Assembly (NCBI RefSeq): GCF_900095385.1
Contig: NZ_FMID01000023.1
Coordinates: 1 to 43,799, forward strand
DNA length: 43,799 nucleotides
Source: Methanoculleus chikugoensis
GTDB lineage: Archaea > Halobacteriota > Methanomicrobia > Methanomicrobiales > Methanoculleaceae
Direction: 5' to 3'
The position numbers were made by a program, and so were the translations under genes. The notes beneath the pieces are model-generated. The model was not told the DNA's origin. It worked only from the letters and a program-made list of their open reading frames with translations, and ran no database searches. This document shows, piece by piece, positions 5,587 through 43,799 of this stretch (the first letter of the stretch is position 1; the number at the start of each line of letters is the position of its first letter).

Positions 5587-5766
5587 CCCTGACATCCACC
5601 CTCTTTTCGCACTCTCATCTTTTGTACCTGTTCTCCGGCGTGAGTGGCGTCAAACGCTCCTGGTAAAGTCCATTGATCCTACTGCTTGTGGTCATCTAAA
5701 ACCCCAGTACTTCGCTAAAACGGTTGAGGTAATCTTCAAGAGGTCAAACCATCGACCTCCCTTCGC

Positions 5767-5814
5767 AACCTAACGGTTGCTCAAACTCCGGATGTTCCAT
5801 CCATCGTCCTTCGC
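5767..5814 (+). repeat. Hairpin-module insertion inside the long element copy, block A
   Basis: This 48-base block is absent from the short copy of the element. It is bordered by CCTTCGC on both sides, so it looks like an insertion with a 7-base duplication, or a slippage product. It contains AACC-TAAC-GGTT followed by GCTCAAACTCC, the same hairpin-plus-tail design as the modules at 6111-6260. Confidence 0.6.
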
Positions 5815-5891
5815 GTTCTCCCGCGTGCTTCCGCGTGAGTAAATTGGAGGATGTCAACAGAACCTCGCGCGAAGAGCGCGAAGCCGCGAAG

Positions 5892-5983
5892 CGCGACTGG
5901 CCGAAGGTGTGACGTTCCAGAGAAACGGAGTTGGAGCACCGTTAGGTGCGTGGGCAGGAGCATGAGCACCGCAAGGTGCGAAG
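5892..5983 (+). repeat. Hairpin-module insertion inside the long element copy, block B
   Basis: This 92-base block is absent from the short copy and is bordered by GCGAAG repeats. It carries two stem-loops, GCACC-GTTA-GGTGC and GCACC-GCAA-GGTGC, the first preceded by GGAGTTGGA, the inverse complement of the TCCAACTCC tail used by the modules further right. The modules are thus present in the opposite orientation here. Confidence 0.6.
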
Positions 5984-6072
5984 TCCGGTGCCCGGGTGCT
6001 GCCGATCCCGTTGTAGGTCGCTATGCGAGGCTGCATTGGTCTATTTCAGATACCGAAATTAGCGAAGTACTG

Positions 6073-6515
6073 AACCCAAATATTCGAGATCAACTTCGTG
6101 TTCTTCGCACTTCGCACCTACCGGTGCTCCAACTCCTTTCCCGCACCTGACGGTGCTTACGTTCGCTATCGCTCACGTCTCGAAGACCTCCGGTCTTCTC
6201 AAACTCCTGTCCGAAACCTTTCGGGTTTCTCAAGTTCCGGCCCTGCGGGCCATTGCATCCTACGGACAGTCGTTCTCCGGAACGTCGCACCCTTCGGAAA
6301 AGTCGTCCTTCGCGGCTCGCACTTGGGGCGGCTCAAGCTCGCTCTCGCTCGCACTTCGTGTGAGCTAACAGTCTATAAGCGATGATGCAGTCTCACGCGA
6401 AGGACGCGAAGCCGCGAAGCGCGAGAATCCGAGTCTTGAGAACTCCGGGAGACTTTGGGGAGAAGAAGGGGATGTGGGGAACTAGATCTCCAGCCGCTGG
6501 ACCGGGAAAATGGTG
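6073..6515. repeat. Gene-free stretch with a cluster of short hairpin modules
   Basis: No gene is supported here. The sequence is a string of stem-loops of about 30 bases: GCACC-TACC-GGTGC then TCCAACTCC (about 6114); GCACC-TGAC-GGTGC (about 6144); GAAGACC-TCC-GGTCTTC then TCAAACTCC (about 6180); GAAACC-TTTC-GGGTTTC then TCAAGTTCC (about 6208); GGCCC-TGC-GGGCC (about 6239). Stems differ but pairing is kept, with a frequent ACC...GGT core and a C/T-rich tail. At 6391-6421 a TCACGCGAAGG / GCGAAGCCGCGAAGCGCG tract follows, also seen near 5871, 12571 and 34100. The rest shows nothing further. Confidence 0.6.
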
Positions 6516-17881: not shown

Positions 17882-18076
17882 TGGCGATATCCCCTTGAAA
17901 TCCGTGCATAGGGTAAGCGATGCTCCGAAGAACGGCATACGGGGGATCTGGCGGGTCGAAAGGTAGGAGCACGAACACTGCCAGATGCGAGTATCGCTAA
18001 ACAAAATGCGGAAAAGCGAGGGGACAGCCCCGGTGCAGTGGACCGTGGGGATATCGCCACGCACTGCCCCCGCCCC
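17882..18076. repeat. Inverted-repeat segment containing a dispersed G/C-rich sequence
   Basis: TGGCGATATCCCC (17882-17894) is repeated in inverse at 18047-18059, bounding about 150 bases of non-coding sequence. The right arm continues into a 27-base sequence (18050-18076, GATATCGCCACGCACTG then a C-rich tail) found again at 43762-43788 at the window end. It may be the end of another small repeat element; target duplications were not found. Confidence 0.45.
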
Positions 18077-18243
18077 CGTGGGGCGGGGAGGAGGCCGAAG
18101 GCCGGGTGGGGTGGGGTTATAGGTATGATCTTCTGAGGTAAGATAGGGGAGGAGGGCATGCCCTCTCGAAGACCTTTGGCCTTCTCGTGCCCCGGTGCAC
18201 GGAGAGTGACGGCAGGGCATGGAGTGAATATGAACCGGCGCCT

Positions 18244-25502: not shown

Positions 25503-26010
25503 AGTATCCCATCGTTTTTTTACCGGTTGGAGAGATCGTGCCCCATCCCGGCTATATTGCCCGGCATCAAGGTGCGGCATTCCCTGCCGGAATCGCACTT
25601 TCGCACCTCCGGCGCTCAAACTCCGTTCCCGAAACCCTTCCAGGTTTCTCCAGCTCCGATTCTGACGAACCGTCGCATCCTGAAGGGACCGTCGTTCGTC
25701 GGTGCTCCTGCCGCACCGCCGGACATACTTTACCTTTATGTGGGCGGGCGGTGCGGAAAAGGTTTGTCAAGACTTGGCATGACACACCGTGTCAGTCTCC
25801 GGTCCGGTTACACGGTCCCGGGTCGTCCAGACCCTTCCTTCCCGAAGCGTCTCCTGAGCAACCCCCGAAGGACCCGCGCCGGGCGGCGGGCACAGGCAGG
25901 CGGCCGGCCGATCCGCTCCCCTTATGCCGATGTTGTGTTCTCTCTGTATCCGGGAGATTCGATGCATTAATCACCAAAAACAGCCCAATGTTCATTTCCA
26001 GAGTGATCGA
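25503..26010. repeat. Gene-free region before cas1 with hairpin modules
   Basis: No gene is supported in these 508 bases. Hairpin-module sequences recur at about 25603-25665: CGCACCTCCGGCGCTCAAACTCC, then GAAACCCTTCCAGGTTTCTCCAGCTCC, followed by ATCCTGAAGG. A TATA-like TATTGCC or CTTTACCTTTATG (about 25728-25740) is far from the cas1 ATG. No direct repeats of CRISPR type and no leader were found. Confidence 0.5.
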
Positions 26011-39369: not shown

Positions 39370-39442
39370 ACCCCCGTAGTGTAGTGGTCAATCATGCAGG
39401 ACTTTGGATCCGGCGACGGCGGTTCGAATCCGCCCGGGGGTA
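39370..39442 (+). tRNA. tRNA-Gln (anticodon TTG)
   Basis: Acceptor ACCCCCG (39370-39376) pairs fully with CGGGGGT (39435-39441); the discriminator is A and CCA is not encoded. The D arm is GTGTAGTGGTCAATCAT, the anticodon loop CTTTGGA (TTG), and the T arm GGCGG-TTCGAAT-CCGCC. The anticodon stem CAGGA/TCCGG has one A-G mismatch at its second pair. TATA-like ACATAAAATATAGG (39311-39324) lies upstream. A transposable element begins 18 bases after its end. Confidence 0.93.
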
Positions 39443-39459
39443 CTGCATTCATCCGGCCT

Positions 39460-39689
39460 CAGTACTTCGCTAATTTCGGCATCTGAAATAGACCAATGCA
39501 GCCTCGCATAGCGACCTACAACGGGATCGGCAGGACCCGGGCACCGGACTTCGCGGCTTCGCGCTCTTCGCGCGAGTTAATGGGCGAAGATAGCAATATG
39601 GCTTCACGCGGAAGCACGCGGGAGAACGCGAAGGGAGGTCGATGGTTTGACCTCTTGAAGATTACCTCAACCGTTTTAGCGAAGTACTG
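39460..39689 (-). mobile_element. Non-coding inverted-repeat transposable element (MITE-like), short copy, 230 bp
   Basis: It begins CAGTACTTCGCTAA and ends TTAGCGAAGTACTG, the same 14 bp terminal inverted repeats as the element at 5705-6072, and lies in opposite orientation. Perfect 5 bp target duplications GGCCT flank it (39455-39459 and 39690-39694). Against the long copy it lacks two hairpin blocks and differs in a central stretch of about 38 bases, while the ends are nearly identical. No gene is inside. It has landed 18 bases beyond tRNA-Gln. Confidence 0.87.
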
Positions 39690-39788
39690 GGCCTTCACAT
39701 TGCCGCACGTGGGTATTTCGCAGCCACTCTTATCTTGTTCGGCGGCGAAACCGGAAGGGACTTTTTGGCGTACGGCGAGCATACAAGA

Positions 39789-43575: not shown

Positions 43576-43761
43576 GGCTTCATGCACCGGTGGGACAAGT
43601 AGCCTTTGAGGTTTTTATACCTTGTTGGGGGCGGGGTTTGGTAGGGTGCCGGGTCGGTGGGAAGGTGTCTATAGTGCGGCAGGATGGGGAGAGATGGTTA
43701 CCTGCTTCAGGCGGGGATGATCGATAGGGGTTGTATATGGCCCATCCACGGCTTTCCAGGA

Positions 43762-43788
43762 GATATCGCCACGCACTGCCCCCGCCCC
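43762..43788 (+). repeat. Second copy of the dispersed G/C-rich repeat
   Basis: GATATCGCCACGCACTG and the following C-rich bases match 18050-18076 exactly over 27 bases. The sequence is followed by a G-run up to the window edge, so the repeat may extend beyond it. Confidence 0.65.
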
Positions 43789-43799
43789 ATCGGGGGGGG

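Follow-up and report, generated by a model that had tools for sequence, protein, structure and literature searches.

Short palindromic repeats that spread between genes are known from several kinds of genome. Bacterial REP and BIME sequences are described in the available part of PMC3733652 as palindromes of 20-50 bp that occur in high copy number, mostly between genes, also as dimers and in some cases inside longer palindromes. Double-hairpin elements of fungal and sponge mitochondria, as presented in the available sections of PMC2800124, invade intergenic DNA and differ between relatives, and no mover is named for them there. Among the small hairpin repeats of mitochondria and bacteria are some for which no mover is known, and the route by which they spread is still debated. 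Transposases that act on single strands offer one model: TnpA of IS200/IS605 elements and RAYT each act at their own tetranucleotide. ISH3 elements, which are relevant to the host repeat described below, leave target duplications of 4-5 bp.

Here we describe short double-hairpin units in a stretch of 43,799 nucleotides (the window) from Methanoculleus chikugoensis, genome G000 in our set. They lie both inside a longer mobile element and on their own between genes.

Results

The features of the window are collected in Table 1. Both MITE copies are bounded by the 14-bp inverted ends CAGTACTTCGCTAA, which in the long copy occupy 5705-5718 and 6059-6072, and both are flanked by exact 5-bp target duplications. 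In the sister genomes G003 and G006, the site of the short copy is unoccupied and carries GGCCT only once. The two copies are separate insertions of one non-autonomous MITE whose internal coding region is gone. The short copy was observed to lie 17 bp downstream of a tRNA gene (window 39370-39460). We assembled further copies from 74 short loci around candidate MITE copies or related hairpin places, plus the window, and selected 44 by the presence of both ends and of a duplication with at most one mismatch; among copies delimited in this way, the duplication was exact in 30 and had one mismatch in the other 14. L024 was added by hand, giving a set of 45 that leaves out partial copies and an orthologous copy in G011 that has lost its right duplication. 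MITE matches were found in 27 of the 35 genus genomes.

Table 1. Coordinates of the mobile and hairpin-forming features in the window
Feature	Position	Strand	Remarks
Long MITE copy	5705-6072	+	368 bp; ISH3-type
Short MITE copy	39460-39689	-	230 bp; without hairpin units
Left target duplication of long copy	5700-5704		5 bp, AACCC
Right target duplication of long copy	6073-6077		5 bp, AACCC
Target duplication of short copy	39455-39459 and 39690-39694		GGCCT
Central palindrome of the MITE	5808-5891		The MITE's own; variable loop; arms rich in GCGAAG/CTTCGC; landing site of units
Block 1	5760-5807	-	One 48-bp double-hairpin unit between CCTTCGC repeats; second CCTTCGC at 5808-5814
Block 2	5886-5977	+	92 bp between GCGAAG repeats; second GCGAAG at 5978-5983
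Outer unit of block 2	5886-5905 plus 5952-5977	+	46 bp; interrupted by the inner unit
Inner unit of block 2	5906-5951	+	46 bp; placed within hairpin 1 of the outer unit
Free-standing double-hairpin units outside the MITE	6105-6264	-	Model matches 6105-6165 and 6204-6264
Free-standing long palindrome	6352-6425		Type like the MITE centre; read from sequence
Composite of hairpin units between genes	25567-25700	-	132 bp; first hairpin of one unit interrupted

An exact search for the MITE end in the 35 genus genomes revealed that several of them hold 1318-bp elements with identical ends. Six such loci were fetched, and the three that passed the duplication filter have an exact 5-bp duplication. The full-length element that we examined (L117) encodes a 386-aa protein that matches NF033541 transpos_ISH3 with E = 3e-80. 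The MITE and the 1318-bp element have 14-17 terminal bases in common and nothing further. Because the MITE ends match those of an ISH3-family element, the MITE was probably moved by an ISH3-type transposase, which would have left the 5-bp duplications. ISH3 transposase matches above the cut-off were found in 7 of the 35 genus genomes, and there were none in G000, a draft of 70 contigs. Partners exist in sister genomes, and the MITE of G000 may be orphaned. In genome G004, the starts of five contigs (C4-C8, bases 112-126) were observed to share the transposon end at about base 113; the assembly was therefore probably broken at members of this transposon family, whose number would be underestimated.

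The centre of the MITE is a palindrome in which units land, and CGCGAAG or GCGAAGC was found in 44 of the 45 copies. As a word enriched across the genome, GCGAAGC was rejected: it occurs 69 times in 360,620 bp, where ~85 occurrences are expected, and it is concentrated in the MITE. The loop of the central palindrome (25-40 bases; window 5840-5865 and 39460-39689, L013 516-729) is inverted between copies, as seen when the short copy is set against C70, and in other MITE copies unrelated sequence takes its place. The palindrome behaves as though its loop were turned around or exchanged. One MITE copy of 138 bp (L149 335-472) misses the whole central palindrome while keeping both ends and the duplication.

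The original prediction was that the long copy carries two extra blocks of 48 and 92 bases, each bordered by a short direct repeat, and that these blocks carry stem-loops of the kind found as separate modules nearby. Pairwise alignment against the short copy confirmed that the blocks are present in the long copy only, with CCTTCGC bordering block 1 and GCGAAG bordering block 2. Block 1 is matched by our covariance model at 5756-5813(-) with E = 3e-14, and the inner unit of block 2 at 5902-5958(+) with E = 1.4e-10. We read the 92 bases as 46 + 46 because another MITE copy, L010, has 46 bases at this place, and the rest (5906-5951) lies inside the first hairpin. Across MITE copies this site is graded, with inserts of 0 (short copy), 46 (L009 and L010), 92 (window), and 139 bases (L135). 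The ACC...GGT stem-loops at 6111-6260 do belong to the same unit type; the E values of the covariance-model matches to block 1, the inner unit, and the two units here range from 3e-14 to 1e-4. Farther along the window, a match at 25594-25701(-) includes 56 bases that substitute for a 3-base stretch of hairpin 1. The composite to which it belongs is present in G000 and G003, while the other six of the eight genomes compared have 6-22 bases instead. In L178, L070, L076, and window 6303-6358, hairpin 1 was observed to be replaced by the short direct-repeat motif TGCGAGTGTAGCGAGC or variants of it, and the usual stem is not formed. Units bearing this motif are apparently a second unit type of ~37-45 bases.

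The plan of the unit is CGAAG, TGCGA, hairpin 1, GGAGCNTGAG, hairpin 2, CGAAG. It measures 44-49 bases, and its linkers are conserved while its stems are variable yet covarying. The covariance model was built from nine units together with their CGAAG flanks, and it yielded 125 matches, 109 of them distinct, drawn from 42 sources; 96% of cells are paired. Among the 109 distinct rows, the covariation score was 0.398 compared with 0.110 after shuffling, and 149 cells were double-changed compared with 39, in an alignment that is itself fitted to the structure and against controls that keep the relatedness among rows. Sliding controls gave far lower covariation than the actual unit alignment.

The loops of the units are constrained. 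Tetraloops follow GNNA in 67 of 86 cases and triloops follow GNA in 70 of 91, and a C-G pair closes 150 of the 186 unit hairpins. The tetraloop form that is stable in RNA is GNRA, and just 14 of the 67 GNNA loops have it. For DNA, the consulted part of PMC4686876 describes mini-hairpins as extraordinarily stable when the loop is GNA or GNNA and two or more G-C pairs are present, and gives a melting temperature of 78 C for GCGAAGC. Among hairpins at most 60 bases from units, 96 of 135 have a GN(N)A loop or its complement, compared with 147 of 1168 elsewhere; this excess is partly selection, because the model that finds the units already had such loops. The strand reading GGAG is favoured in folding for 95 of 105 units with DNA parameters and for 98 of 105 with RNA parameters. 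Since RNA parameters favour the same strand, the asymmetry between strands is by itself compatible with a role in RNA.

The model matches 33 of the 35 genus genomes at E ≤ 0.01; counts per genome are lower bounds, the highest being at least 154. In 360,620 bp from eight genomes we counted 56 units, which extrapolates to ~400 per 2.6 Mb. At E ≤ 1e-4, at least 41 of 159 genomes sampled from the order gave a match, 32 belonging to the genus and 9 lying outside it; among the nine, G119 has at least 29 units and the others have at least 1-5 each. The exact pattern was found in 28 stretches of the genome collection, all from Methanoculleus or from Euryarchaeota / Methanomicrobiales assemblies. Only 5 of the 56 units lie inside conserved genes, though such genes cover 79% of the sequence. 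Conserved genes were defined here as ORFs conserved in at least three other genomes. This set was substituted for greedy ORF calling, which covered 86% of the sequence with ORFs and placed 33 of the 56 units in them, because repeat DNA yields false ORFs.

The position of the units, together with their covarying stems, would suit selected RNA elements, such as terminators or processing hairpins, whose spread is incidental. Convergent gaps hold 19 of the 37 assignable units while making up 31% of gap length, a count that omits 14 of the 56 units without a gene on one side. Against this stand the 53 of 67 GNNA tetraloops that are not GNRA and the unit content of orthologous gaps, which differs between genomes. 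In tandem gaps, moreover, both orientations of the unit relative to the gene are equally frequent (4 and 4), though a cruder, earlier ORF set had given 9 of 9 on the same strand. We consider such a selected role in RNA improbable. A known structured RNA family was rejected, as the Rfam search returned only a tRNA in the window and no match in L156, L185, or L117.

To what extent the units come and go as discrete pieces can be seen across the MITE copies. At least one unit is present in 16 of the 45 copies, at several positions, and none is present in 29. Two MITEs of genome G025 (L155 and L156) are identical (identity 1.00) except for one 46-bp unit. An orthologous MITE insertion is shared by G000, G011, and G003. 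Of these three, only the G003 copy is missing block 1, and it has also lost the right half of the MITE. Over 60 distinct pairs of filled and empty sites whose net insert measures 18-60 bases, some of which come from one shared site, 36 inserts fall at 44-49 bases and the mode is 46 (12 pairs), which goes beyond chance. The reverse history starts from a long ancestral copy and derives the short ones through deletion at the bordering GCGAAG or CCTTCGC repeats. It draws on the fact that these borders are direct repeats, between which slippage gives the exact short form, and on the copy number of arrays, which clearly varies. It is at odds with the 29 unit-free MITEs and with the filled copies, which hold different units at different positions. 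In the unit-poor genome G001 (at least 22 model matches), 0 of 11 MITEs are filled; in the other genomes the figure is 16 of 34 (Fisher p = 0.004). Unit-free MITEs were found in 10 of the 13 genomes sampled, so loss in a single lineage does not account for the short copies. Insertions are also seen beyond the MITE: besides its GCGAAG-rich palindrome, units have entered palindromic repeats of other kinds and the hairpins of fellow units. Losses of individual units surely occur too, and deletion as the general origin of the short copies is very improbable. The view that discrete modules have nested in an older element, with others standing alone elsewhere, is supported, and the earlier wording "mobile or prone to copying" is kept as the right hedge.

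The usual insertion point is directly 3' of GRAG, and the orientation of the unit is set by this motif. GRAG was found at the left border of 54 of 104 units and at the right border of 47 of 104, mostly as GCGAAG, and is partly selected for, since CGAAG flanks form part of the model. In G005, G006, G007, and other genomes, units interrupt a G-rich palindromic repeat right behind GGGGAG. In the three simple cases at this site, hairpin 2 is common and hairpin 1 differs, suggesting a single ancestral insertion whose hairpin 1 was exchanged afterwards; the three are therefore not independent events. The window has a separate G-rich repeat (GGGGATATCGCCACGCACTGCCCCCGCCCC...) at 18047-18087 and 43759-43799, and the G-rich palindromic repeats that units hit in sister genomes are related to it. 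The length of the junction repeat varies from 0 to 10 bases. When the hexamers on the two sides of each unit were compared, the match was 3.82 and the shuffled value 3.55 (p = 0.001, relatedness included), a weak excess that would fit a true target duplication and points away from template switching. Units also stand in tandem: G006 has an array of 14 near-identical units of 46 bp. A CRISPR array was rejected here, as the near-identical units of the G006 array have no variable spacers between them. In G011, a MITE with a tandem unit array (L171 276-794) is unresolved in the assembly, which has a run of N.

Discussion

The best explanation overall, to which we give a probability of roughly 0.7, is that there are two levels of mobile DNA, with units that spread through single-stranded DNA and lie within or beside an older MITE. 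The MITE level is documented by ends and duplications, and the unit is discrete, nests in other repeats, and prefers GRAG. Movement through single-stranded DNA is what we infer for it. On the strand reading GGAG, the unit would fold into very stable GNA/GNNA mini-hairpins; a stalled polymerase could then switch template between short homologies of the GRAG type and copy one unit into a new site. Switching at short homologies would also explain why hairpin-1 stems are exchanged, why units form tandem arrays, and why the central loop of the MITE is inverted between copies. The variable junction repeats suit template switching better than a transposase that makes a fixed duplication, whereas the discrete size of 46 bases is no obvious outcome of it. 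As the route of spread, we put template switching at a little under even odds.

A discrete size of 46 bases and strand-specific stable hairpins would both fit units that are miniature transposons, inserted 3' of GRAG by a dedicated single-strand transposase in the manner of IS200/IS605 TnpA or RAYT. The same can be said of GRAG-adjacent insertion at unrelated sites, which include GCGAAG in MITEs, GGGGAG in the G-rich repeat, and CCGGAG and GGCCGAAG in hairpin loops. A search of the 35 genomes for Y1_Tnp (PF01797) weighs against it. The domain was found in seven, five of which are unit-poor (G010, G019, G022, G030, and G033), and none was found in most unit-rich genomes, including G000 and the single-contig G003 and G006; it is present in the unit-rich G017 and, weakly, in G032. 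An IS200/IS605 or RAYT mover was rejected on this distribution, which tends to unit-poor genomes. A candidate single-strand enzyme that cuts and joins at GRAG is a route we regard as possible, with odds clearly below even.

Copying of the units by a reverse transcriptase via RNA was evaluated in the same genomes. An RNA route has been proposed for the hairpin elements of Allomyces on the ground that they lack flanking duplications, according to the accessible text of PMC2800124. RVT_1 (PF00078) was found in only 3 of the 35 genomes and in none of G000, G003, G006, and G011, although two that bear it, G025 and G026, are unit-rich. Reverse transcription was rejected on these counts and appears extremely improbable. 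Our preference for template switching over an enzyme is based on the absence of two enzyme families, Y1 and reverse transcriptase, from most unit-rich genomes.

No sign of a host function for the units was seen in this analysis, and our default is that they spread between genes selfishly or neutrally. More speculatively, these may be archaeal selfish DNA without a transposase, in which stable mini-hairpin units would copy themselves by template switching on single strands; we consider this broader proposal less likely than not. Just as tentatively, such transposase-free units would be expected to land in other hairpins, at GCGAAG sites, and in each other. With hundreds of units per genome in ~35 related species, and with nested insertions and sharply defined filled and empty sites, Methanoculleus provides a natural data set in which it can be tested whether replication errors alone let DNA hairpins spread. 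For annotation in this genus, the units explain much of the repeat DNA between genes and many spurious ORFs.

Compared with known systems, the MITE belongs to an established kind. It resembles ISH3-family ISs and MITEs in having ends identical to those of the 1318-bp element of sister genomes, 5-bp duplications, and a lost coding interior; it differs in that G000 has no match to an ISH3 transposase and in that the interior palindrome is loaded with foreign hairpin units. Our literature search, over titles and the starts of abstracts, returned no paper describing the Methanoculleus units. Tandem arrays of them may have been catalogued: the available part of PMC6749651 reports 21 satellites in Methanoculleus marisnigri, 71.4% of them with repeats longer than 30 nt, including a family labelled Fam_48_45_4. 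The middle number of this label is plausibly a repeat length of 45 nt, and the family plausibly consists of such units in tandem. In the portion of that catalogue available, however, the satellites are listed as tandem repeats and not as hairpins, as single units, or as mobile.

Like the REP sequences associated with RAYT, the Methanoculleus units are short, high-copy, intergenic palindromes, some of them nested in longer palindromes. Unlike REPs, they are archaeal, carry no GTAG or CGTC tag, have GRAG as their border motif, form head-to-tail dimers, and combine conserved linkers with varying stems, and a RAYT/Y1 gene is missing from most unit-rich genomes. The mitochondrial double-hairpin elements are similar in that two adjacent hairpins move as one, a likeness of anatomy only. 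In the sponge elements, as far as the available account describes them, the stems are kept and the loops vary, whereas the Methanoculleus units sit in an archaeal chromosome and have constrained loops and varying stems.
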